Positions 6,659-53,098 of a stretch of DNA of 64,000 nt are shown in pieces. How positions within the stretch are numbered: position 1 is the stretch's first letter; the number at the start of each line of letters is the position of its first letter. This DNA is from Streptomyces spinoverrucosus (GTDB lineage: Bacteria > Actinomycetota > Actinomycetes > Streptomycetales > Streptomycetaceae). The DNA is taken from assembly GCF_015712165.1 (NCBI RefSeq), contig NZ_JADPZX010000003.1:186001-250000 (forward strand), given 5' to 3'. Both the position numbers and the translations under genes were made by a program. Below the pieces are notes generated by a model. It did no database searches, was not told where the DNA came from, and worked only from the letters and a program-made list of their open reading frames with translations.

Positions 6659-8373
<1,715 letters not shown>

Positions 8374-8377
<4 letters not shown>

Positions 8378-10359
8378 GACGCTGCTGACCCTCCGTTCTG
8401 CGGCGAGACGGGCGACCCCTGGACGTGGAGCACGTGGGCGGGGGCCCGGCCGGGCTCCAGGCGCACGTAGTTGGTGCTGCCCCACTGATAGGTCTCACCC
8501 GTCAGTTCGTCGTGCACGGACACGGAGGAGTGCCAGTCCAGGCCGAGTTGCGGCATGTCCAACGAGACCGTGGCCTCCTGGGTGTGGTGGGGGTCGAGGT
8601 TCACAACGACCAGGACGGTGTCGGAGCCGGTGCGTTTGCTGTACGCGATGAGCGCGTCGTTGTCCGTGTGGTGGAAGCGCAGGTTGCGGAGTCGGCGCAG
8701 GGCGGGGTGGTCGCGCCGGATCGTGTTCAGCCGAGTGATGAGGGGGGCGATGCTGTTCGGGTTGTCCCAGTCGCGGGCCTTGAGCTGGTACTTCTCCGAG
8801 TCGAGGTACTCCTCGCTGCCCTCGCGCAGCGGGGTGTTCTCGCACAGCTCGTAGCCGCTGTAGACGCCCCAGGTGGGGGAGAGGGTCGCGGCGAGGACCG
8901 CGCGGGCCTCGAAGGCGGGACGGCCGCCGCGCTGGAGGTAGGCGTGCAGGATGTCGGGCGTGTTGACGAAGAAGTTCGGCCGCATGTAGCTCGCGGCCTC
9001 ACCCGACAGCTCGGTCAGATACTCCGTCAGCTCCTGCTTGGTGTTGCGCCAGGTGAAGTACGTGTACGACTGCTGGAACCCGATCTGGGCGAGGGTGTGC
9101 ATCATCGCGGGACGGGTGAAAGCCTCCGCCAGGAAGATCACGTCCGGGTCGGTGCGGTTGATGTCGGCGATGACCCGCTCCCAGAACATCACCGGCTTGG
9201 TGTGCGGGTTGTCCACGCGGAAGATGCGCACGCCGTGGGCCATCCAGTGCCGCAGCACCCGCAGGGTCTCGGCGACCAGGCCGTCCATGTCCCGGTCGAA
9301 GGCGATGGGGTAGATGTCCTGGTACTTCTTCGGCGGGTTCTCGGCGTGGGCGATCGTGCCGTCGGGGCGGTGGTGGAACCACTGGGGATGCTTGTCCACC
9401 CAGGGGTGGTCCGGGGAGCACTGCAGGGCGAAGTCGAGGGCGACCTCCAGGCCGTGAGCTGCGGCCTGGGTAACGAACCAGTCGAAGTCCTCCAGGGTGC
9501 CCAGGCCGGGGTGGACGGCGTCGTGGCCGCCCTCGGGGGAGCCGATGGCCCAGGGCACGCCGACGTCGTCGGAGCCGGCGGACAGGGTGTTGTTGCGGCC
9601 CTTGCGGAAGGTGGTGCCGATCGGGTGAATCGGCGGCAGGTAGACCACGTCGAAGCCCATCGCGGCGATGTCCGCAAGCCGGCGGGCGGCCGTGCGGAAC
9701 GTGCCGTGGGGGCGCTCGGCCGTGCCCTCGGAACGCGGGAAGAACTCGTACCAGGATCCGAACAGTGCCCGCTCCCGCTCCACCAGCAGCGGCAACGGCT
9801 CGGACGCGGTCACCAACTCCCGCAGCGGATACCGGGCGAGAACCGCGTCCACCTCCGGCGTCAACGCCGCCGCGAGGCGGGTGGCGACCGGCAGTGAGTC
9901 GTCCCGGAGGCTCCGCGCTGCCGCCAACACGACCTCGCGGGCGGCCCGTTCGGGTACGTCGTCGGCGGCCCGCTCGTACAGCCCTCCGCCCTCTTCGAGG
10001 ACCAGGCCGGTGTCGATGCCCGCCGGCACCTTGATCCCGGCGATGTGCCGCCAGGTCGTGATCGGGTCGCTCCACGCCTCGACGGAGTACGTCCACAGGC
10101 CTTCGGCGTCCGGTGTGACCTCGGCGCCCCATCGGTCGGTGCCGGAGGCGAGTTCGCGCATCGGTGTCCAGGGGCCGGGACGGCCCTGGGGATCCCTGAG
10201 TACGACATTGGCGGCGACCGCGTCGTGGCCCTCGCGGAACACAGTGGCCGTGACCTGGAACGTCTCTCCAGGGACGGCCTTCGCCGGGCGCCTGCCGCAC
10301 TCCACCGCCGGACGGACGTCCCGGACCGGGATGCGGCCGATGGCCTCAGTCGTACTCAT
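8374..10359 (-). CDS. glgE: Alpha-1,4-glucan:maltose-1-phosphate maltosyltransferase
   Basis: 661 residues. It transfers maltose from maltose-1-phosphate onto the non-reducing end of alpha-1,4 glucans. The N-terminal beta domain ([17 protein letters not shown]) precedes the GH13_3 barrel. The barrel shows [18 protein letters not shown], the nucleophile region [11 protein letters not shown] and the acid/base region [11 protein letters not shown]. The ATG at 10359 follows GGAGGTGAGACC. It is first in the glgE-treS-mak-glgB operon. Streptomyces coelicolor carries two such clusters. The presence of glgX immediately divergent here resembles a complete glycogen locus, but I cannot assign it to one paralogue without a comparison. 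Confidence 0.97.
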
Positions 10360-41659: not shown

Positions 41660-42280
41660 CTACTCGAACCGCGTCGTGTCGCCCGCCCCGCGCCGTACGA
41701 TCTCGGCCTCGCCCGCAGAGAAGTCGATCACCGTCGTGGGTTCCGTCCCGCAGTCCCCGGAGTCGACCACGCCGTCCAGCACATGGTCGAGCCGGTCCTC
41801 GATCTCCCAGCCCTGTGTCATCGGCTCCTCCTCGTCGGGCAGGAGCAGGGTGCTGGACAGCAGCGGCTCACCGAGTTCCGTGAGCAGCGCCTGGGTGACC
41901 ACGTGGTCGGGGATGCGCACGCCGACCGTCTTCTTCTTGGGGTGTTGGAGCATGCGCGGCACCTCCTTCGTCGCGGGCAGGATGAAGGTGTAGCTCCCCG
42001 GCGTGGACGCCTTGACCGCGCGGAACACGTCGTTGTCGACCCGAACGAACTGGCCGAGCTGCGCGAAGTCCTGACACACGAGGGTGAAGTGGTGCCGGTC
42101 GTCCAGTCGGCGGATGGACCGGATCCGGTCGATGCCGTCCTTGCTGCCCAGGCGGCAGCCGAGCGCGTAGCAGGAGTCGGTGGGGTATGCGATGAGCGCC
42201 CCCGACCGGACACTGTCGGCGATCTGGGCGATGGTGCGCGGCTGGGGGTTGTCGGGGTGCACGTCGTAGTACTTCGCCAT
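41660..42280 (-). CDS. YciO/YrdC family, threonylcarbamoyl-AMP synthase-like
   Basis: 206 residues. The YrdC/Sua5 fold begins with IADSVRSGALIAYPTDSCYALGC, followed by SIRRLDDRHHFTLVC and KKKTVGVRIPDH. YrdC proteins make threonylcarbamoyl-adenylate for the t6A tRNA modification; the YciO branch, to which this sequence is closer, is less well defined. It stands alone. ATG start at 42280. Confidence 0.88.
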   Translation of the reverse strand: MAKYYDVHPDNPQPRTIAQIADSVRSGALIAYPTDSCYALGCRLGSKDGIDRIRSIRRLDDRHHFTLVCQDFAQLGQFVRVDNDVFRAVKASTPGSYTFILPATKEVPRMLQHPKKKTVGVRIPDHVVTQALLTELGEPLLSSTLLLPDEEEPMTQGWEIEDRLDHVLDGVVDSGDCGTEPTTVIDFSAGEAEIVRRGAGDTTRFE

Positions 42281-42779: not shown

Positions 42780-42964
42780 TTCGCGGCAGCCGTTGCCGGG
42801 ACCGTCCAGGAGGCGGTCACCTGCCCGTTTGTCGACCGTTTCCCGCCCGCGTCGCCTGGTCCACTCCGCGAAAGTCCCGGCCCGCCACCGCTGACCTTGG
42901 GTAAGGTCCCCGACCGATGTGTCCGACGCGGGCGCGCGGCAGACGAGGGAGGCAGGGAGACGAC

Positions 42965-44488
42965 GTGGCCGGCCGAGAGGGCGAGGGCCGTCGCGCTGAC
43001 GGGGCGGACGGCGTGGACGCGACGTGGGCGCAGGAGTTGCTCGACCATCTGCGGCCGTCCGGGCGTGACGTGCGCAAGGTCGTCGCCTGGCTCGCCGCCG
43101 CCGCGCACGCCGACGTGGCGCTCCAGGACGACGCCGGCACCCTCCTCGCCGGTACCCGCACGCCCCTCGACGAGGCCCTCGTCGCCGACATCACCACCGG
43201 CCGGATCGCCTCCGCGGCGCTCCAGGACCACGGACGCCACCTGAGGCTGGTCAGGGTCGAACTCCCGCACCCCGCGACGGCGGGTGTCCTGGCCGTCTCC
43301 CGGCCCGCCCCCTTCGACCGGCGCACCGCCGACATCGTCACCCACACCGCCGGCGTGCTCGAACTCCTGCTGCGCGCCCGCGAGAGCGCGGCGGCCGGAC
43401 ACCGCCTGCGACGCGCCACCTCGGATCTGCGGCTGGCGATCCTGCAACTGCTCATGGTCGAGGACACCGTCTCCGCCCGCCGGGTCGCAGCCGGACTCTG
43501 GCCCGGCCTCCTCGACACGGACACGGCCTGCGTCTACGTCGCCGAGAGCCGCCCCGAGGACCGCGACCGGCTCGCCGAGGAGTGCCTCGCCGCCACCTCC
43601 GAGCAGGCCCTCGTCGTACGCTGCCCGGCCGTCGACGCGCATGTGATCGTCGTGACGCCCGGCGAGGCCGCCGCCGCGGAACTGCGCGCGCTGGTCGGCG
43701 GCCGCCCCCACACCTTCCTCGGCGGCAGCGCATGGCAGAGCCTCGCCCAGACCGCCACCGCGTACGGCCAGGCGGTCAGCGCCCTCGCCGTCGCGCACTT
43801 CCGCCCGGACAAGGCGGCGGTGTACGCCGAACGCACGCACCCCGAACGCCTCATGGACCCGGCGGCGCTCCGCGGCTGGACGGCCCGTGTCCTGCGCCCC
43901 CTGGACGCGCTGGCGCACCACACGCGCGCCGAACTCCTCGCCACCACCCGCCTCGGCCTGGAGTTCACCGCCGTCAACGCGGCCGCGGTCCTCGGCGTCA
44001 GCCGCAACACCGTCCGCGCCCGCATGGAACGCGTCGAGGGCCTGCTCGGCACCGACCTGTCCGACCTCACCGTCCGGGCCGCCGTCCACCTGGCACTGAA
44101 CACCCAGGCCGGGCTCGCCCAGCAACCCGACGGTCAGGGCGGCGCGGACACCCGGCTGGCCGATCTGCTGGCCGGGCCCGCCGTGCACACCTGGGCCGGT
44201 GAACTCCTGCGCCGCCTGGACGGCGACTCCCGGAACGTGCGCCGGACCCTGCGCACCTGGATCGCGGCCGGCGGCAACGCCGAACGAGCCGCTCACCTGC
44301 TCGGCGTGCACGCGCAGACCGTGCGCGAACACGTACGCAGCGCCGAGCCCGTCCTCGAACGGCAGCTCCTCGCCGGGGGCAGCGACCTCTACGAGGTGGT
44401 CCTCGCCCACCTGGCGCTCGGGGACCTCGACCAGCCCGCCCTGCACGGGGCGAATTCGGGCCATCCGGACGCACCTGTGCACGGTTGA
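42965..44488 (+). CDS. PucR-like regulator with two C-terminal HTH motifs
   Basis: 507 residues. A GAF/PucR-like sensory N-terminus (DVALQDDAGTLLAGTRT) is followed by a middle domain and a PucR HTH (NAAAVLGVSRNTVRARMERV). Then comes a second, similar HTH at the end (AERAAHLLGVHAQTVREHVRS). It likely regulates the adjacent conservon/P450 genes or its own promoter; this is by position only. The GTG at 42965 has AGGGAG. Two HTH units in one chain are unusual for the family. Confidence 0.87.
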   Translation: MAGREGEGRRADGADGVDATWAQELLDHLRPSGRDVRKVVAWLAAAAHADVALQDDAGTLLAGTRTPLDEALVADITTGRIASAALQDHGRHLRLVRVELPHPATAGVLAVSRPAPFDRRTADIVTHTAGVLELLLRARESAAAGHRLRRATSDLRLAILQLLMVEDTVSARRVAAGLWPGLLDTDTACVYVAESRPEDRDRLAEECLAATSEQALVVRCPAVDAHVIVVTPGEAAAAELRALVGGRPHTFLGGSAWQSLAQTATAYGQAVSALAVAHFRPDKAAVYAERTHPERLMDPAALRGWTARVLRPLDALAHHTRAELLATTRLGLEFTAVNAAAVLGVSRNTVRARMERVEGLLGTDLSDLTVRAAVHLALNTQAGLAQQPDGQGGADTRLADLLAGPAVHTWAGELLRRLDGDSRNVRRTLRTWIAAGGNAERAAHLLGVHAQTVREHVRSAEPVLERQLLAGGSDLYEVVLAHLALGDLDQPALHGANSGHPDAPVHG

Positions 44489-44615: not shown

Positions 44616-45842
44616 TCACCCCCGCAGCCGCACCGGCACTTCCTGCCAGCCGAACGCGATGAACGACGGCACCTGCCGCAACTCGCCCTCGGCCAGCCGT
44701 ATCTCCGGGAAGCGGTCGAACAGCGCGGGCAGCGCGGTGAGCGCCTCCATCCGGGCCAGCGGCGCGCCGATGCACCGGTGCACACCGATCCCGAACGCCA
44801 GATGGTCGTCCGCGCCGCGCGTGGCGTCGAAGACATCCGCGTCCGGCCCGTAGTGCGCGGGGTCCAGACCGGCGGCGGCGTACGTCGTGATGATGGCGTC
44901 CCCGGCCGGAATGGTGACGTTTCCGACCTTGAGGTCCGTGACCGCGAACCGCAGCGGCAGCGAGGCGATGGACGGGTGCACCCGCAGCGTCTCGTCCACC
45001 ACCGCGTCCCAGCCGATCTCCTCGGCCCGTACCGCGGCCAGTTGCTCGGGCCGCCGCAGCAGGGCGACCACCGCGTTGCCGATCAGGTTGACGGTCGTCT
45101 CGAACCCGGCGCCGATCACCAGCAGCAGCGTGTACAGCAGCTCCTCGTCGCTGAGCCGGTCGCCGTCCTCGTCGCGCACCCGGATCAGCTCGGTGGTGAG
45201 ATCGTCGCCGGGGTGCTCGCTGCGGTGGGCGATCAGCGCGGGCAGCACCGTACCGATCTGCTGCTGCACGAACGCCGCGTGCTCCGGACTCGGGTCGGAC
45301 GTGTCCATGATCGCCGCGATCAGCCGCCCGGTGTCGTCCCGCATCTCGTCCGGCACGCCGAACAGATCGCAGATGATCCGCATCGGCAGCGGATGGGCGA
45401 ACCCGGCCTTCACATCCACCACTTCACCGCCTGCCCCGGCCGTCTCCAACTCGGCGAGCAGCTCGGCGGTGATCGCCTCGACGCGCGGGCGCATCGCCTC
45501 GGTGCGCCGGTGGGTGAAGCTCGGCGAGACCAGCTTGCGCAGCCGGGCGTGGTCGGCACCGTACGTGGAGAGCATGTTGACCACGCCGACCCAGCCCAGG
45601 ATCCAGCCCCAGGAGGGGTGTTCGCCGATCTCGGGCCACAGTTTCCAGTGCAGGCGTGGATCCCTGCTGACCTGCGGGTCGAGGATCAGTTCCTTGAGCA
45701 CGTCGTAACCGGTGGGCGCCCAGGCGGGTATGCCGCCGGGCAGCTCCACGGGCACCACGGGGCCGAGGGCACGCAGCCGGGCGCTCTCGGCGGGGATGTC
45801 GGCGCCGAACGGGTCGAGAGCGATGCGGTCGGTCGGGGTCAC
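44616..45842 (-). CDS. cvnF: Cytochrome P450 (CYP154-like), conservon gene
   Basis: 408 residues. I-helix LLVIGAGFETTVNL, K-helix DETLRVHPS with a normal EXXR, and heme motif LAFGIGVHRCIGAPLARM with the Cys ligand at about residue 357. It resembles the CYP154 family, often found beside CYP157 in Streptomyces conservons. It would monooxygenate an unknown substrate. The GTG start overlaps the stop of the other P450 (GTGA). It is the last gene of the cvnABCDEF operon. No ferredoxin or reductase gene is included. Confidence 0.93.
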   Translation of the reverse strand: MTPTDRIALDPFGADIPAESARLRALGPVVPVELPGGIPAWAPTGYDVLKELILDPQVSRDPRLHWKLWPEIGEHPSWGWILGWVGVVNMLSTYGADHARLRKLVSPSFTHRRTEAMRPRVEAITAELLAELETAGAGGEVVDVKAGFAHPLPMRIICDLFGVPDEMRDDTGRLIAAIMDTSDPSPEHAAFVQQQIGTVLPALIAHRSEHPGDDLTTELIRVRDEDGDRLSDEELLYTLLLVIGAGFETTVNLIGNAVVALLRRPEQLAAVRAEEIGWDAVVDETLRVHPSIASLPLRFAVTDLKVGNVTIPAGDAIITTYAAAGLDPAHYGPDADVFDATRGADDHLAFGIGVHRCIGAPLARMEALTALPALFDRFPEIRLAEGELRQVPSFIAFGWQEVPVRLRG

Positions 45843-47077
45843 GGGCGGTCTCCTGGCTGGTCGGGGGAGCGGGGGGTGAAACGCACGGGCAGCGCGGTGA
45901 GCGACCGGTGGAAGGGACCCGGCCGCCAGGTCAGGCGTTCACGGGGCAGGACGGGGTCGAGGTCGGGCAGCCACTGGGTGAGCCGCTCGATCGCCTCGGT
46001 GGCGATGAGCAGCGTGTGCTGCTTGACCGGGCAGGCATGCGGGCCCGCCGACCACGACAGGTGCCAGGCGTCGCCGGGGCGGCGGGCGTCGCCGTGCTCC
46101 TGCTCGGCGAAGTGCGCCAGCGCGCCGTAGGAGACGACCACCGGCACCGCCGCCCTGATCCACACACCGTGGAAGGAGACGGGTCTGCGGGCGAAGTGGA
46201 TGCCGTAGTTGGCGAGCGGCGTCTCGTGGTGCAGCACCTCCACCACCGCGTCCATGACCGGCCGGGCCCCGCTGGTGAGCGTCGAGTAGTAGTCCGGGTT
46301 GCCGAGGATCCGCGACAGCGCGTTGGACACCAGGTTCGCGGTCGGTTCGTGCCCGGCGCCCAGGGTGAGGAACACCTGCCAGGTGACCTCCTCCGGGGTG
46401 AGCCCCGCCGGATGGTCCAGGAGCCGGCTCGGCAGGTCGTCGCCGCGCTGCTCGGCCTTGGCCGCGATCAGTTCCAGGACGTAACCGCCGAACTCCGCCT
46501 CACCCTCGGCGGCCTCGGCACCGCCCTCCATCATCTTGCCGAGGGCCGCGTTGAGCCGTTCGCTCTGGCTGTCCGGCAGCCCGAACAGGCTGTTGAACAC
46601 CAGCGCCATCAGCGGCCGGGCGAAGTCGGCCACCAGATCGGCCTCGCCGCGCGGCCCGAACCGGCTCACCAGCACATGCACCGCCCGGTGCACCCGCGCC
46701 CGCAGATCGTGCGGTTCGACCAGGTCGAACGTGTCGATGAGCGTGGTGCGGTAGCGCACGTGGTCGGCGCCGTCGGCGAACAGGGTGTTGGGCCGCCAGC
46801 GCATCATGCCGAGGACGGGCGAGTCGTCGGCGACGGTCGCCTCCCACGGCCGGGGGTCGTGCGAGAACGTCTCCGTGTCGTGCAGCAGGTCCAGCGCGGC
46901 CCGCCGGTCGACGACGACGTACGCCGGTACGCCCGGCGCCAGTTCGGCCCAGCCGATCGGACCCTGGGCGCGCAGGTCGGCGTAGTAGCGGTACGGGTCC
47001 AGCGCGAAGCCGTCCTCCCACAGCCGCACGGGCACCGAACGGGAGAAGGCCTGCTGGGCAGGGGGATTTGTCGTCAC
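45839..47077 (-). CDS. cvnE: Cytochrome P450 (CYP157-like) without EXXR motif
   Basis: 412 residues. The I-helix LTLGAGHEPTANLVS and the heme loop WSAGPHACPVKQ (Cys about 349) are present. The K-helix reads AVVEVLHHETPLANY, so the conserved EXXR becomes EVLH (about residue 280). CYP157 proteins of Streptomyces conservons are known to lack a standard EXXR. The function is unknown; it may need its P450 partner. The GTG start overlaps the GTPase gene stop (GTGA). The heme loop also departs from the FxxGxxxCxG consensus (Cys-Pro). Confidence 0.92.
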   Translation of the reverse strand: MTTNPPAQQAFSRSVPVRLWEDGFALDPYRYYADLRAQGPIGWAELAPGVPAYVVVDRRAALDLLHDTETFSHDPRPWEATVADDSPVLGMMRWRPNTLFADGADHVRYRTTLIDTFDLVEPHDLRARVHRAVHVLVSRFGPRGEADLVADFARPLMALVFNSLFGLPDSQSERLNAALGKMMEGGAEAAEGEAEFGGYVLELIAAKAEQRGDDLPSRLLDHPAGLTPEEVTWQVFLTLGAGHEPTANLVSNALSRILGNPDYYSTLTSGARPVMDAVVEVLHHETPLANYGIHFARRPVSFHGVWIRAAVPVVVSYGALAHFAEQEHGDARRPGDAWHLSWSAGPHACPVKQHTLLIATEAIERLTQWLPDLDPVLPRERLTWRPGPFHRSLTALPVRFTPRSPDQPGDRP

Positions 47078-47682
47078 CGGGGCTCCGGAGGGTGGCGGTC
47101 GATCAGATGCTGGACCAGGGCGAGCAGCGCGTCGATGGAGGAGTCGCGGTCCCGGGCGTCGCACGTCACCATCGGTGTGCCCGCATCCAGGTCGAGGGCG
47201 GTGCGCAGCTGTTCCTCGGTGTAGTGGCGGGGCGCGTCCGGGAAGGCGTTGAAGGCGACCGCGTACGGCAGTCCGCTCTCCTCCACCAGCCCGAGCACGT
47301 CGAACGAGGCGTCGATCCGGCGGCTGTCCACCAGCACGAGCGCGCCCAGCGCCCCGTAGGCGATGTCGTCCCACAGCGAGCGGAACCGCTCCTGTCCGGG
47401 TGTGCCGAACAGGTAGAGCACGATCCCGCCGGGCAGGCTGATCCGGCCGAAGTCGATCGCGACGGTCGTCGTCGACTTCTCCCGCACCCCGGCCAGGTCG
47501 TCCACGGTCGCGGACAACTCGGTGAGGTGCTCCTCCGTGTGCAGCGGCCGGATCTCGGACACGGAGTCGATCAAGGTCGTCTTGCCCACCCCGAACGGGC
47601 CCGCGACCAGGATCTTCACCAGTTCGCGGGCGCTGTCGGGCAGGTGGATGCCGCTAGTTGTGCTTGAGGGCGCGGAGGCCAT
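47074..47682 (-). CDS. cvnD: Conservon GTP-binding protein
   Basis: 202 residues. G1 is GPFGVGKTT, G3 is FGTPGQERFRSLW and G4-like NAFPDAPRHYTEE. It belongs to the Ras-like conservon GTPases that act with CvnA-C at the membrane. Its start overlaps cvnC by 29 bp, and its stop overlaps the P450 GTG. The NKxD motif is replaced by NAFP, as is usual in this family. Confidence 0.95.
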   Translation of the reverse strand: MASAPSSTTSGIHLPDSARELVKILVAGPFGVGKTTLIDSVSEIRPLHTEEHLTELSATVDDLAGVREKSTTTVAIDFGRISLPGGIVLYLFGTPGQERFRSLWDDIAYGALGALVLVDSRRIDASFDVLGLVEESGLPYAVAFNAFPDAPRHYTEEQLRTALDLDAGTPMVTCDARDRDSSIDALLALVQHLIDRHPPEPR

Positions 47683-48016
47683 CGGCCACTCTCTTCAGCA
47701 GGTCGGGGTCGAACCGTTCGGCGGGCGGGATCGGCGCGCGGGCGTACGCCAGGTTCCGGTCGACGAGCCCGGCCGCCAGCACCCGCACCGCGGAGACCGG
47801 CAGCCGCAGCAGCGCCGCGGCCTCCACCACCGTCAGCGCGCCGTCGGCCAGCTCGTCCAGCAGGGCCAGCTGAGCCGCCGGGAGATCGGCGGGCGGCGGC
47901 TCGCCGGTGCCGGTGAGCACCGAGAGCCGCTCCAGCTGCGGACGGCTCGGCCGGGCCACGCCGCCCGTCGACAGATACGCGGGAACCAGGGGGCGGCCGC
48001 CTGGGCGGCCGGTCAT
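47654..48016 (-). CDS. cvnC: Conservon DUF742 protein
   Basis: 120 residues. DUF742 features: GRPLVPAYLSTGGVARPS and the winged-helix-like EAAALLRLPVSAVRVLAAGLV. It is a partner of CvnB and CvnD. The ATG overlaps the cvnB stop (ATGA). Confidence 0.95.
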   Translation of the reverse strand: MTGRPGGRPLVPAYLSTGGVARPSRPQLERLSVLTGTGEPPPADLPAAQLALLDELADGALTVVEAAALLRLPVSAVRVLAAGLVDRNLAYARAPIPPAERFDPDLLKRVADGLRALKHN

Positions 48017-48435
48017 GCCGACGGGCCGCCGTCGGCTCCTCGGGGCGCCGCGGCCATCGCCTTCTCGCCGAGCCGCGCCACCTGCGAGTGCACCCGGTGC
48101 GCCAGCAGGTCCAGACGCACCTCGGCGTCCCCGTACGCGGCGACTACGGTGCCGTGGTCCGTCGGCACGATCAGCACGTAGCCGTGGTCGGACTCGATGA
48201 CGACCTGGCGCACCTCGGCCCGCTCCCGGTCGGCGAACGCCGCCGCGGCCGTCCGGCACGCGCCCTGCACGGTGCTGGTGATGGCGGCCACCCGCTCGGC
48301 CGACGGCCGCGACAGCGCGTCGGTGTACCCGGTGACGAGGCCGTCCCGGGTGAGCAGGACGGCGGCCACGACGTGCGGTACCTGCAGGATCGGTTCGAGC
48401 ACCCACGCCGTGTCGCCCGCATCGCGGCTGGTCAT
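48013..48435 (-). CDS. cvnB: Conservon roadblock/LC7 protein
   Basis: 140 residues with the roadblock/LC7 fold (WVLEPILQVPHVVAAVLLTRDG and HGYVLIVPTDHGTVVAAYGD). Such proteins regulate the GTPase of the module. Coupled by ATGA to cvnA. Confidence 0.95.
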   Translation of the reverse strand: MTSRDAGDTAWVLEPILQVPHVVAAVLLTRDGLVTGYTDALSRPSAERVAAITSTVQGACRTAAAAFADRERAEVRQVVIESDHGYVLIVPTDHGTVVAAYGDAEVRLDLLAHRVHSQVARLGEKAMAAAPRGADGGPSA

Positions 48436-49841
48436 CGAGCCGCTCCCCCTTCGTAGTCGGTCTCTTCGTAGTCGGTCTGTTCGGTGTCGCCGGCCGCTGC
48501 GTCGGCCCGCTCGGGCGCGTCGTCCCGGGCGACGGCCCGTGCCGCCGCCGTACCGGACTGCAGCGCGCCCAGCGCGGCCGCGGCCTCCTCGGGCCGCCTC
48601 GCCGGTCCGCGGGTCGCGGACTCGACGGTGGTGGTGGCCCGGGTACGGCGCCGCCGCTGCGGCAGCCCCCCGGAGTCCCGCGGCCCGTCGTGCGGGGCTA
48701 CGGCGCCGGCGGCGTCGTCCGGTTCGGTGCCGTACGCGTGTGCCGGGGCGGGCGTGTCCGGTTCGGCCCGGCGGGTCGAGCGCGGGGCGCTGACCGCGGG
48801 CGGCCGCTCCTCGGAGTCGATCCGGCTCAACAGGTGGCTGTCCACCAGTAGCACCGCGCGGACCCCGCCGTACGGGGAAGGCGAGGAGAGATCCACGCTC
48901 AGGTCGAACTGCCGGGTGAGCTGGCCGATCGCGGCGAGGCCCATGCGCGGCGGATCACCGAGGTCGGTCAGCAGGATCGGCTCGGACCCGGCCACCAGCC
49001 GCTGGGCGCGGGACCGTTCTTCCTGAGTCATGCCGAGCCCGGCGTCGTCGATCGTGACGCACACCCCGTGGTGCACATGCTCCAGGTTGACCGTCACGTC
49101 GGTGTCCGGCGCGGAGTGCCGCAGCGCGTTGTCCAGCAGTTCGGCGGCGATGATCGCGACCGGTTCGACGGCGTGCGACACCAGGGCGGTGCCCGGCTGA
49201 AGATGGTTGTGCATCCGCACCCGGTGGTAACCCGCGAGCCGGGCCTGGCCACCCGTCACCGCGTCCACCAGGTGGGACTCCTCGCGGGCCAGTCCGACCC
49301 ACGCCCCGCACACCACCGCCGCGACCTGCGCCCGGCGCAGCGACTGCTCGTTCTCGTGGTCGAGCTCGAACAGGGTCTGCGCCAACTCAGGGTCGTCGTA
49401 GCGCTGTTGCAGCGCCCGCAGGGCGTCCTGCAGTCGGTACAGGGCCGCCTGGATCTCCCGGGTGGCGCCCCGCATCCCGGCCTGCGCGGCCGCGTCGATG
49501 CGGGTGCGCTGCGAGGTCAGCTCCACGCGCAGCGCGGCCAGGACGTCCTCCAGCGCACCGCCCAGCGGGGTGCCGGTGAGGTGCGGCTGGCGTGGGCCGG
49601 GCACGGTGACGTGCGGACGGTCCAGTCGGCGGGCGGTGGCCGGCATGCGTTGCGCGGCGAGATGCCCGACCTCCGCCGTGAACGCGTGCACAGTGCCTTC
49701 GAGTTGGCGGCGCAATGCGGCGATCTCGGCCTGTTGCCGGGCCTGTTGCCGGCGGGACCGCACCAGCTCGCCACCGAGGGCGAGCGCGGACAGTGTGCCG
49801 ACGGCGAGCGCGCCGGCGACCAGGTCCGGTAATTCGATCAT
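48432..49841 (-). CDS. cvnA: Conservon histidine-kinase-like sensor
   Basis: 469 residues. An N-terminal membrane helix (LVAGALAVGTLSALALGGEL) is followed by a coiled region and an HATPase_c domain: N-box AAELLDNALRHS, G1 DDAGLGMT. No phosphoacceptor His motif is obvious, as is typical of CvnA. A long Pro/Arg-rich tail follows. The fourth codon is TTA, a rare leucine codon read by the bldA tRNA, so translation of the operon may depend on development. ATG at 49841 with only a weak ribosome site (GGAACC). Confidence 0.93.
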   Translation of the reverse strand: MIELPDLVAGALAVGTLSALALGGELVRSRRQQARQQAEIAALRRQLEGTVHAFTAEVGHLAAQRMPATARRLDRPHVTVPGPRQPHLTGTPLGGALEDVLAALRVELTSQRTRIDAAAQAGMRGATREIQAALYRLQDALRALQQRYDDPELAQTLFELDHENEQSLRRAQVAAVVCGAWVGLAREESHLVDAVTGGQARLAGYHRVRMHNHLQPGTALVSHAVEPVAIIAAELLDNALRHSAPDTDVTVNLEHVHHGVCVTIDDAGLGMTQEERSRAQRLVAGSEPILLTDLGDPPRMGLAAIGQLTRQFDLSVDLSSPSPYGGVRAVLLVDSHLLSRIDSEERPPAVSAPRSTRRAEPDTPAPAHAYGTEPDDAAGAVAPHDGPRDSGGLPQRRRRTRATTTVESATRGPARRPEEAAAALGALQSGTAAARAVARDDAPERADAAAGDTEQTDYEETDYEGGAAR

Positions 49842-50305: not shown

Positions 50306-50550
50306 CCCTAAATCCATTGGTGTTATTTCCAGCCGCCCCTCCCGTGAGGGCATTTAGGAACTTATGCTGGCGATATGGGGCGTTATGCCCTATAGGTCTG
50401 CCGAGCAGCCAGTGTGCTGTGCGACCGCCTGGGCGGCCGGACGGCGGATCCTCACGCGCCGGTGACGCGCGATTCCCCGGTGCGTACGGGCACCGGTCAC
50501 TGCTTGCCGGGCCCACAGCCCCAATATCCGACCCCCTAAGGGGGCGCCCA
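50306..50550. promoter_or_regulatory. AT-rich leader before the repeat protein
   Basis: After the ATPase fragment there is an AT-richer stretch (about 50300-50400, with TTATGC-type elements) that is the most likely promoter of the following secreted protein. No gene is seen. The gap from the cvnA start to 50069 also shows nothing coding. Confidence 0.4.
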
Positions 50551-50997
50551 ATGCGCGTGAACATCTCCAGGATCCGGCGTGCGGCGGTTGTCATCGGCTC
50601 CGCACCCCTCCTGGCCATTGCCGCTGGAGCCGGCGTTGCACAGGCGGCTGCCACTTCGTCGCCTCCCACCTCCGTGGTCCACCACGACAGCGGCTGGGGC
50701 TGGGGGGAGTGCAAGGACGACGGCTGGGGGTGGGGTGATCGCCACGACCGATGTGACCACGACCATGGACGTCATGTTGACCACGGCAAGGACCGCGATC
50801 ACGGGCACGACCGCGACCACGGCAAGGACCGCGATCACGGGCGCGACCATGACCACGGCAAGGACCGCGATCACGGGCGCGACCATGACAACGGGCGCGA
50901 CCGCGATCACGGGCGTGACCACGACAACGGACGGGACCATGGCAACGGGCGCGACCATGACAACGGAAAGGACCGCGACCACGGCCGTGACCACTGA
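50551..50997 (+). CDS. Secreted Asp/His/Gly repeat protein
   Basis: 148 residues. Signal peptide RRAAVVIGSAPLLAIAAGAGVAQA. A Trp/Gly patch (SGWGWGECKDDGWGWGDRHDRC) is followed from residue 80 by 12-residue units of the type KDRDHGRDHDHG, five full copies and one partial. Each unit is very rich in His and Asp and is probably disordered and metal-binding. I know no named family. ATG at 50551 with AAGGGGG. A hairpin terminator follows at 51041. It sits next to a metal ATPase remnant, which fits but does not prove a metal role. Confidence 0.78.
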   Translation: MRVNISRIRRAAVVIGSAPLLAIAAGAGVAQAAATSSPPTSVVHHDSGWGWGECKDDGWGWGDRHDRCDHDHGRHVDHGKDRDHGHDRDHGKDRDHGRDHDHGKDRDHGRDHDNGRDRDHGRDHDNGRDHGNGRDHDNGKDRDHGRDH

Positions 50998-51040
50998 TCC
51001 AGTGCGGTGAACGACTCCATGGGAGGACCCATGTGAATCG

Positions 51041-51104: not shown

Positions 51105-52304
51105 GTGAAGATCGCGTGCGTGGGTGGCGGGCCGGCGGGACTCTACTTCGCGATCTCGGCGAAGCTGCGGGACGTCGGGCACCGGATCACCGTCCTGGAG
51201 CGCGACCCGCCCGGGGCGGGCTACGGCTGGGGTGTCGTCTACTGGGACGATCTACTGGACGTCCTCTATCGCAATGACCCGGAAAGCGCCCGTGAAGTGA
51301 GCGCGCGCTCCGTGCTGTGGCAGGACCAGCAGATCCAGGTCCGCTCCCGGCGCGGTGGCGGAACGGCGTTCTTCGGCGGCTATGGGTACAGCGTGAGCAG
51401 AGCGGCCCTGCTGGACGTGCTGACCCGGCGCGCGTCCGAGCTCGGGGTGGAACTCGACTACGGTCGTCGGATTCTGGACCCCTGCGAGCTGGCCGAGGCC
51501 GATCTCGTCGTGGCGGCCGACGGCGCCGGCAGCCGGATCCGCACGGTCGGCCGTGAACACTTCGGAACCCATGTCGCCGCAGGCCGCAATTCCTACCTGT
51601 GGCTGGGCACGGACCAGCCGCTCACCCACTTCGCCTTCTGCTTCGAGCAGACCCCCGCCGGGTGGATCTGGTTCCACGCCTACCCCTCCACGAAGACGGT
51701 GAGCACCTGCATCGTGGAGTGCCCCCCGGAGACCTGGCACGGTCTGGGGCTCGACCGGCTCGACGACGAGGAAGGGGTGCGACTGCTCGAAGGGATCTTC
51801 CGGCGCGCACTCGACGGGCATCGCCTGATCAGCAGGTCGCGCGGCCGGCCGGCACGGTGGCAGACGTTTCCCCATGTCACCAACCAGTGCTGGTACCACG
51901 GCCGGACCGTGCTGGTCGGCGACGCCGCCCACACCACGCACTTCACACTCGGCTCGGGCACACGGCTTGCGATGATCGACGCCGTCGTCCTGGCCCACAG
52001 TTTGACGGAGTACGTGGAGCTGGACGAGGCTCTGCACGAGTACGACCGGCACCGGCGCGCCGAACTGCACCCCGTCCAAGCGGCAGCGCGCTCCAGCATG
52101 GCCTGGTTCGAGCACCCCGACCGTTACCTGGCCCGCGACCCGGTGTCCTTCGCGTATGCCATGTCCGTCCGCCGGGGCAACCAGACGCCCTGGCGGTACC
52201 AGCTCCACCTCGCCACCCAGGCCGCCGCGGTGCGCAGCGTGCGCCGCGCCTACGACTCCGGTCGGCGCTGGTACCGCGCCCGCCGCCGTGGGGAAACACT
52301 TTGA
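51105..52304 (+). CDS. FAD-dependent aromatic hydroxylase
   Basis: 399 residues. FAD-binding GGGPAGLYFAISAKLRD (Rossmann), the DG motif region VVAADGAGSRIRTV and the GD motif LVGDAAHTTHFTLGSGT. The N-terminal part (GYGWGVVYWDDLLD) resembles the hydroxylase half of anthraniloyl-CoA/salicylyl-CoA monooxygenases, but without the fused reductase half. It would insert one oxygen atom into an aromatic acyl-CoA or related substrate. GTG at 51105. A convergent cysteine-rich HTH gene lies 56 bp away. Confidence 0.9.
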   Translation: MKIACVGGGPAGLYFAISAKLRDVGHRITVLERDPPGAGYGWGVVYWDDLLDVLYRNDPESAREVSARSVLWQDQQIQVRSRRGGGTAFFGGYGYSVSRAALLDVLTRRASELGVELDYGRRILDPCELAEADLVVAADGAGSRIRTVGREHFGTHVAAGRNSYLWLGTDQPLTHFAFCFEQTPAGWIWFHAYPSTKTVSTCIVECPPETWHGLGLDRLDDEEGVRLLEGIFRRALDGHRLISRSRGRPARWQTFPHVTNQCWYHGRTVLVGDAAHTTHFTLGSGTRLAMIDAVVLAHSLTEYVELDEALHEYDRHRRAELHPVQAAARSSMAWFEHPDRYLARDPVSFAYAMSVRRGNQTPWRYQLHLATQAAAVRSVRRAYDSGRRWYRARRRGETL

Positions 52305-52360: not shown

Positions 52361-53098
52361 CTATCGTCCGCAGGCCGCGTCGCCCTGGGCGGGCCGGTCC
52401 TGGTGGCCCACCCCGCGCAGTTCCACACAGCACATTCCCGGGGTCGGGGCGAGGACCGCGGTGGTGTTGTCGCTGCCCAGGCCCTCCAGGTAGCCGGCGA
52501 GAAAGGCACAGTTGATCCCGCACACCAGTTCCGGTGCCTTGGCCGCCAGCGGATGGAAGGGGCAGTTGCGCAGCCGCACCAGCATGGCTGCCGCGCGCTG
52601 CGGCTCGTACCCGAACCTCTCCAGCGTTTCGGCGGCCAGGCTGAGCCCGCGCTCGGCACCGAGCCGTCCCGGCCGCATCCGCTCTCGTTCGGCCGTCCCC
52701 ACCGCTCGGCCCCGGTCGGCGGCGATGCGCAACGCCGACTGGTGGGCCCGCTCGCCGGGGGCTTCCGTCACCACGGCCTCGGTGAGAATGTCGGCCAGCA
52801 TCTCGTAGCGCCGCTCGGGGATGCTGACGGTGATGCCGCACACCGCCGGCACGTATGTCTTCGGCCAGCGGCCGACCTTGCGGATACCGGCCGGAGGCGC
52901 GTAGTGGGCCTGCAGCAGGCCCGCCGTGACGAGCTTGTCCAGGTGGAAGGCCGCCAGCTTCCGGGAGATGCCGACCTGAGCCGCCACCTCTTCACGTGTG
53001 ACCGGTCGGTGCTCGGTCCTCACGAACTCGAACATGCGTCGGCGCAGCTCGTCCCCGAGGGCGGCGAGAGCGGTCAGCGACGCTTCGTCGAGGGTCAC
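52361..53098 (-). CDS. HTH regulator with a Cys-rich C-terminus (SufR/ArsR-like)
   Basis: 245 residues. N-terminal winged helix: FVRTEHRPVTREEVAAQVGISRKLAAFHLDKLVTAGL. The C-terminal domain has NCPFH, LVCGINCAFLAGYLEG and PGMCCVEL with Cys at about 179, 193, 197, 223 and 224, a layout resembling Fe-S-sensing regulators such as SufR. It could sense redox or iron-sulfur state. The start at 53098 is GTG; a -10-like AT-rich spot lies just upstream. It is convergent with the hydroxylase gene. Confidence 0.86.
   Translation of the reverse strand: MTLDEASLTALAALGDELRRRMFEFVRTEHRPVTREEVAAQVGISRKLAAFHLDKLVTAGLLQAHYAPPAGIRKVGRWPKTYVPAVCGITVSIPERRYEMLADILTEAVVTEAPGERAHQSALRIAADRGRAVGTAERERMRPGRLGAERGLSLAAETLERFGYEPQRAAAMLVRLRNCPFHPLAAKAPELVCGINCAFLAGYLEGLGSDNTTAVLAPTPGMCCVELRGVGHQDRPAQGDAACGR

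Follow-up and report, generated by a model that had tools for sequence, protein, structure and literature searches.

A conservon-linked, degenerate P450 of Streptomyces spinoverrucosus with a changeable EXXR arginine site: a possible heme-thiolate regulator

A cvnE-type conservon followed by two P450 genes

The 64,000-nucleotide stretch analysed here, referred to as the window, comprises positions 186,001 to 250,000 of contig NZ_JADPZX010000003.1 (assembly GCF_015712165.1) from Streptomyces spinoverrucosus. At 44616-49841 it carries, all on the minus strand, the genes cvnA, cvnB, cvnC, cvnD, P450_1 and P450_2, which overlap end to end (Table 1). The last two encode cytochrome P450 (P450) proteins, and the subject of this work is P450_1, in which the Arg of the EXXR motif is replaced. 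The junction overlaps along the operon are 4, 4, 29, 4 and 4 bases, the longest lying between cvnC and cvnD, and the four 4-base junctions read ATGA or GTGA (GTGA between cvnD and P450_1). These overlaps, together with the Pfam assignments, bear out the six coupled kinase, roadblock, GTPase and P450 genes described in the initial annotation of the locus.

Genes for HATPase, roadblock, DUF742 and small GTPase proteins are adjacent in the CvnA-B-C-D order, and a P450 gene lies directly 3' of cvnD. No sensor domain was found in CvnA by Pfam, which returned HATPase families only, and the protein has a single clear N-terminal hydrophobic stretch (one 19-residue Kyte-Doolittle window above 1.6). Judged by this gene content and order, the locus belongs to the cvnE type of conservon (actinobacterial G protein system). 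The match of CvnD to the NCBIfam family small_GTP fell below the family cut-off. The same genome contains 11 DUF742 genes, and two other conservons also precede a CvnE, with the motifs EEVMW and EQSLW, respectively. The S. coelicolor conservons 9-12 carry P450 genes named cvnE, according to PMC8510531. Cvn9-Cvn12 share with the window the CvnA-B-C-D order, the P450 after cvnD and the sensor-less CvnA, whereas the window adds a second, normal P450, a pairing that recurs among the paralogous loci described below. With respect to a defence role, PADLOC gave zero matches for the three proteins tested.

Table 1. Genes of the operon and codons of the P450_1 motif positions in window coordinates
Feature	Positions	Strand	Description	Basis
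cvnA	48432..49841	-	histidine-kinase-like, 469 amino acids	Pfam HATPase_c; hydropathy
cvnB	48013..48435	-	roadblock/LC7, 140 amino acids	Pfam Robl_LC7, E 3.4e-14
cvnC	47654..48016	-	DUF742, 120 amino acids	Pfam DUF742, E 4.7e-16
cvnD	47074..47682	-	small Ras-like GTPase, 202 amino acids	Pfam ATP_bind_1 (P-loop GTPase), E 5.5e-25
P450_1	45839..47077	-	CvnE, CYP157-like, degenerate P450; 412 amino acids, GTG start	
Pro245 codon	46343..46345	-	I-helix Thr position of ordinary P450s	alignment
Glu280 codon	46238..46240	-	E of EXXR, retained	
His283 codon (CAC)	46229..46231	-	replaces Arg of EXXR	
Cys349 codon	46031..46033	-	heme ligand position	
P450_2	44616..45842	-	normal CYP154-like P450, 408 amino acids	Pfam p450, E 2.2e-33

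Motif residues of P450_1 and its relatives

The EXXR motif has long been regarded as required in every P450 fold. In P450_1 the K-helix reads EVLH (E280-H283, counting the GTG codon as residue 1), with the Glu retained and only the Arg changed. The I-helix reads AGHEPT, placing Pro at the site of the oxygen-activating Thr of ordinary P450s, and the heme loop reads GPHACPV, in which Cys349 and the His of HxC are kept and the Gly two residues after the Cys is gone. The motifs of P450_2 are intact (GAGFETT, ETLR and GVHRCIG). Against Pfam p450 the two proteins score 19.1 bits, under the cut-off of 22.8, and 116.2 bits, respectively. Both the EVLH and the CP of the initial annotation are confirmed, the I-helix Pro having been omitted from it; its description of the protein as being without EXXR holds for the Arg but not for the Glu.

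Relatives were sampled in several ways. An ortholog scan limited to a single genome for each species yielded 130 relatives of P450_1; the 80 best, 79-97 percent identical, were kept. A set of 60 regions was taken to spread over identity, four of them from the window's own genome, and a further 20 regions outside the first set came from a scan scoring the best four candidates per genome. Protein searches retained the best 120 of about 8000 scored candidates each. The resulting 403-row set consists of 137 locus proteins, 265 database proteins (16 of which duplicate a locus protein over residues 21-380) and the window's own P450_1, and is weighted toward sequences close to the window's protein or to one query of the W type, i.e. 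with Trp at the Arg site. The CvnE of L102, cut at 337 residues, entered the neighbourhood counts and those of the open reading frames (ORFs) of the loci, and is absent from the alignments and trees of the 403-row survey, while L106a is included in the residue counts and absent from both trees. The nearest named matches to the window's P450_1 are from Streptomyces.

The survey of EXXR loss proposed in the initial annotation reveals six residues at the Arg site of the 403 relatives (H 189, W 162, R 42, Y 8, L 1, F 1), and the E and R of EXXR occur together in only 36 rows. Conversely, the heme Cys is present in 402 of the 403, the exception (L106) being frame-broken, and is followed by Pro in all 403, with CPG in five. 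The I-helix Thr site is Pro in 396 rows, and the Glu-Pro pair of the window's P450_1 is found in 378. Among the 195 CvnE ORFs of the fetched loci the Arg site is similarly mixed (H 78, W 74, R 22, F 12, Y 8, L 1), the heme Cys is kept in 193, both exceptions (L102 and L106) being frame-broken, and the I-helix site is P in 178, T in 12 and A in five. In L102 and L106 P450_1 is split across frames; cvnA and P450_2 of L106 are split as well, and poor assembly is possible there. A frame or sequencing error behind EVLH is ruled out by the His at that site in 189 relatives. The Cys-Pro of the heme loop was dropped as an oddity, being found also in CYP154C2 and in some normal P450s of these loci; on the alignment, the unusual feature of the loop is instead the lost Gly after Cys-Pro.

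Of the 167 normal P450 ORFs in the same loci, a few of which do not partner a conservon (e.g. L098, L099 and L156), 166 retain EXXR and the remaining one is masked at that stretch. The I-helix Glu-Thr pair is kept in 165 and missing from L098 and L156, both of this non-partner kind. Consequently, the motif change belongs to CvnE and not to the locus. L156 derives from an IMG/VR contig filed as viral, and its P450 is 29 percent identical to P450_1 and groups with the normal P450s. Many W-type CvnE proteins have a C-terminal tail ending in a Trp-rich helix (predicted with low confidence; P0223 residues 421-429, consensus of A3), which is not found in the window's P450_1. This tail might bind the membrane or CvnA.

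Selection, predicted fold and relation to known proteins

The median omega against the window over the 80 ortholog loci was 0.223 for P450_1, 0.218 for P450_2 and 0.239 for CvnD, with 0.128, 0.266 and 0.370 for CvnB, CvnA and CvnC, respectively; these are pairwise counts against one reference and hence a rough measure. The best tblastn match per locus was used, and the 80/80 loci counted for P450_2 thus include L081, which lost P450_2. The similarity of the P450_1 value to that of P450_2 indicates that P450_1 is not freely drifting.

An AlphaFold2 model of P450_1 (65 sequences, single chain) displays a whole P450 fold, with a predicted local distance difference test score (pLDDT) of 84.4 and a predicted template modelling score (pTM) of 0.86. 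The closest solved folds are 1gwi and 6l69, the best match being CYP154C1. How such a protein keeps its fold had been raised as a puzzle in the initial annotation, which also proposed modelling of the K-helix; the whole fold of the model and the six different residues found at the site among relatives make this less puzzling. The best PDB match of P450_2, and its closest solved relative by sequence, is CYP154A1 (1odo; E 2.7e-97, 330 bits), its CYP154 likeness being one of best match. The model of P450_1 is nearest CYP154 by fold; it differs from CYP154 in the missing I-helix Thr, EXXR Arg and Cys-loop Gly, and its Cys-Pro is shared with CYP154C2.

Loss of EXXR with retention of the heme Cys and linkage to a conservon is common to P450_1 and CYP157A/CYP157C, as described in PMC3599690. 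That paper describes two CYP157 proteins with EVLW and EQILW, quotes EQSLW for CYP157C1 of S. coelicolor and both EVLW and EQSLW for S. avermitilis, and refers to a 2006 FEBS Letters paper for EXXR loss with conservon linkage in CYP157. Going by that citation, both features have been in print since 2006 and neither is new; the initial annotation was right in recognizing a conservon with two P450s, one of them CYP157-like, and overstated the novelty. P450_1 departs from the published motifs EVLW, EQILW and EQSLW in carrying His instead of Trp at the Arg site (EVLH, with EVLR in some orthologs), and is 30.8 percent identical to the EQSLW copy of its own genome and 45.1 percent to an EVLW copy, neither of which is a named CYP157.

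History of the arginine site

A tree of 66 rows, comprising 56 hand-picked CvnE sequences and, as root, ten normal P450s, was built from an alignment that left out the four EXXR columns. CvnE formed one clade (100/100), the first branch of which holds W rows only; the other 51 rows (100/97) contain a 29-row clade (100/99) with all R and H rows plus two W lineages. In the window's clade R is found among H relatives in L022, L027, L081, P0047 and P0069. A quick tree of 121 rows (111 CvnE and ten normal P450s, without the W row L136a and without L157, the window's copy, and with one gene entered twice, as L172 and L205) agrees, with W deepest and 14 changes at the site. However, a long-branch warning was obtained in this tree where the root joins CvnE, so that the root and the early position of W are less certain than the supports suggest.

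Retention of Arg in the window's clade as the ancestral state was disfavoured, at 30.08 log units worse and p-AU 0.0218 in the approximately unbiased (AU) test. The constraint kept the 32 W/Y/F/L rows together on a single side of one branch and was chosen after seeing the tree, and the rejection is a moderate one. The site codons in the loci (TGG for W in 42/42; CGC in ten and CGG in six for R; CAC in 66 and CAT in three for H) are compatible with single steps. The simplest history is one in which Arg would have given way to Trp early, been regained in a subclade, and then been replaced by His with several returns. Arg appears to have been regained once or more in CvnE, and we infer that the site is nearly neutral in this family. 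What the survey adds is that the EXXR Arg seems to have been lost, regained and changed again in a protein with purifying selection, an unbroken Cys and a near-constant I-helix Pro. No publication describing His at the site, or a return of Arg to it, was found, a weak negative given that most subscription journals lie outside the literature covered.

Conservation of the neighbourhood

By an automatic rule, cvnD lies upstream and a normal P450 downstream of P450_1 in 76 of the 80 best orthologs, and this conservation rules out a chance adjacency of conservon and P450s. The four loci that failed the rule differ in kind: L051 is cut by the contig end; L075 has all genes present, with cvnD spread over two frames; L081 (Streptomyces sp. 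SolWspMP-5a-2) has lost P450_2 and kept cvnB-D, P450_1 (EVLR) and a convergent regulator; and L085 has the P450 pair only, as discussed below.

In the paralogous loci (L096-L155) cvnD is found upstream of 56 of the 58 CvnE ORFs. A normal P450 lies directly downstream of 38, elsewhere in the stretch for five, and is absent for 15, of which 13 do have cvnD. The conservon is a more constant companion of CvnE than a partner P450 is. This favours regulation as the role of CvnE over a set pathway of two enzymes, although L085 points the other way. In one family (f6; L187, L188 and L189) a single conservon is followed by three CvnE copies together with one or two normal P450s, and F occupies the Arg site in each of the nine CvnE copies.

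Possible functions of CvnE

The conservation of P450_1 to the level of its normal partner, despite the lost residue, suggests a regulator of signalling rather than an ordinary oxidising enzyme. In PMC13343842, CvnE and CvnF are reported to accompany overwhelmingly CvnA proteins without sensory domains, CvnF8, of the other accessory type, stimulates CvnA8, and AlphaFold2 docks CvnE11 onto the ATPase domains of CvnA11; before that study the biochemistry of the two accessory types is described as unassessed. We tentatively favour, at a likelihood somewhat short of even, a role of CvnE as a heme-thiolate accessory regulator of the sensor-less CvnA, beside a catalytic CYP154-like partner. This reading draws on the position of CvnE next to cvnD in 56 of the 58 paralogous ORFs, whether or not a normal P450 is nearby, on the Cys kept in intact copies, the near-constant I-helix Pro and the omega like that of P450_2, on the EXXR retained by the neighbouring normal P450s, on the trees with W deepest, R nested and H nested in R, and on the sensor-less CvnA of the window, which matches the pattern of PMC13343842.

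As a regulator, CvnE would bind heme via Cys349 and, because Pro replaces the I-helix Thr, would not run the ordinary P450 oxygenation cycle. Its most likely part would then be to sense or modulate, as a heme-thiolate protein of the cytosol. Docked on CvnA in the way modelled for CvnE11 and CvnA11, it would set the CvnA kinase and, via CvnB and CvnC, the GTP state of CvnD. P450_2 would make, alter or remove the ligand sensed. With catalysis lost the EXXR Arg would become dispensable, and the site could have moved to W early, back to R once or more and, in the window, from R to H. The more far-reaching proposal, that CvnE proteins at large are heme-thiolate receptors of bacterial Ras-like systems that abandoned catalysis, with an EXXR Arg site that became neutral and drifted between W, R and H in that order and in reverse, and with a CYP154-like neighbour making or clearing the ligand, is unlikely, but were it true, a produce-and-sense loop feeding a small GTPase would be built into the operon. 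CvnE also offers a natural series at the Arg site (W, H, R, Y, F and L), including close orthologs that differ in H/R, so that expression and spectra would be enough to show whether EXXR is required. It also gives a lead on the input to sensor-less CvnA, a question that the 2026 paper on these systems leaves open.

Several observations weigh against a regulatory CvnE. The I-helix Thr is retained in the 12 CvnE ORFs noted above, and its loss is therefore not universal. The nearest NCBIfam family of P450_1, though far below its cut-off, is one of glycosyltransferase activators and not of sensors. L085 (Streptomyces sp. ERV7, about 6968-9453) has a P450_1/P450_2 pair without cvnA-D, sitting behind an antiporter-like gene and with EVLR in P450_1, and in L187-L189 the normal P450s are interleaved with the CvnE copies; both arrangements fit an enzyme pair. 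In addition, heme binding, CvnA binding and ligand sensing by CvnE are predictions from sequence.

The main rival is accordingly a P450_1 that acts as a non-classical enzyme (peroxide-driven, an isomerase or a dehydratase) in series with P450_2, with the conservon regulating or sensing a small signal or metabolite. We consider this possible, albeit on the unlikely side. The Cys is invariant in intact copies, a normal P450 lies downstream in 78 of the 80 window-clade loci by the rule (79 when L051 at its contig end is counted), and the pair persists without a conservon in L085. In CYP152 peroxygenases, as in P450_1, the I-helix Thr is replaced by Pro and the heme loop contains Cys-Pro; however, their I-helix pair is Arg-Pro, and P450_1 has Glu in place of the Arg. 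Neither a product nor pathway genes were identified, and the 15 paralogous CvnE ORFs without a normal P450 in the fetched stretch speak against a fixed series of two enzymes.

That P450_1 is an ordinary oxygen-using monooxygenase with merely diverged motifs appears improbable. The whole P450 fold with CYP154C1 as best match, the kept Cys, HxC His and Glu280, and the Thr-bearing minority of CvnE ORFs are all as expected of such an enzyme, but Pro occupies the I-helix site in 178/195 and 396/403 sequences, E and R of EXXR coexist in only 36/403, and the normal partner P450 retains all these features. With regard to the signalling-linked oxidation suggested in the initial annotation, the I-helix Pro likewise counts against P450_1 as an ordinary monooxygenase.

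Equally hard to sustain, and if anything slightly less probable, is a dedicated helper of P450_2, comparable to the glycosyltransferase activators EryCII/DesVIII. The best NCBIfam match of P450_1 is indeed to P450-derived glycosyltransferase activators (TIGR04515; E 1.2e-23, 84.1 bits), and the P450_1-P450_2 order is constant in the window's clade. The score is nevertheless far under the cut-off of 343 bits, and Cys349 is present where the heme Cys of that family is absent: EryCII/DesVIII, which have a P450 fold without ordinary P450 catalysis, lack the heme Cys and heme, as stated in PMC3391682, whereas CvnE keeps the Cys. No glycosyltransferase gene was found beside P450_1 among the window's reading frames and their Pfam matches. 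Moreover, 15 of the 58 paralogous CvnE ORFs have no nearby normal P450, and L081 keeps CvnE after the loss of P450_2.

An inert pseudo-enzyme, which would account for the lost motif residues and for the broken frames in L102 and L106 (the latter broken in several genes, perhaps by poor assembly), is very improbable in view of an omega of 0.223, in the range of P450_2, the Cys in every intact copy examined and the several tandem copies in one family; a common, inert pseudo-enzyme was the case that the initial annotation named as its refutation, and the protein is common but, by the selection estimate, not inert.

Neighbouring genes

Just upstream of cvnA, at about 50500-51000, overlapping frames with repeats of the His-Asp-Gly-Arg type are found (DHGKDRDHGRDH). 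Further on lie a flavin monooxygenase gene (51105-52304, plus strand) whose product matches salicylyl-CoA 5-hydroxylase over the N-terminal half of the latter (E 1.5e-107, under the cut-off) and, adjoining it, a gene for an ArsR-like regulator (52361-53098, minus strand); neither was matched in the 80 ortholog loci. On the other side, a gene for a PucR-type helix-turn-helix regulator (42917-44488, plus strand) is convergent to the operon and recurs in 61 of the 80 ortholog loci, some of which end at a contig edge, and a Sua5/YrdC gene near the operon (41660-42280, minus strand) recurs in 65.

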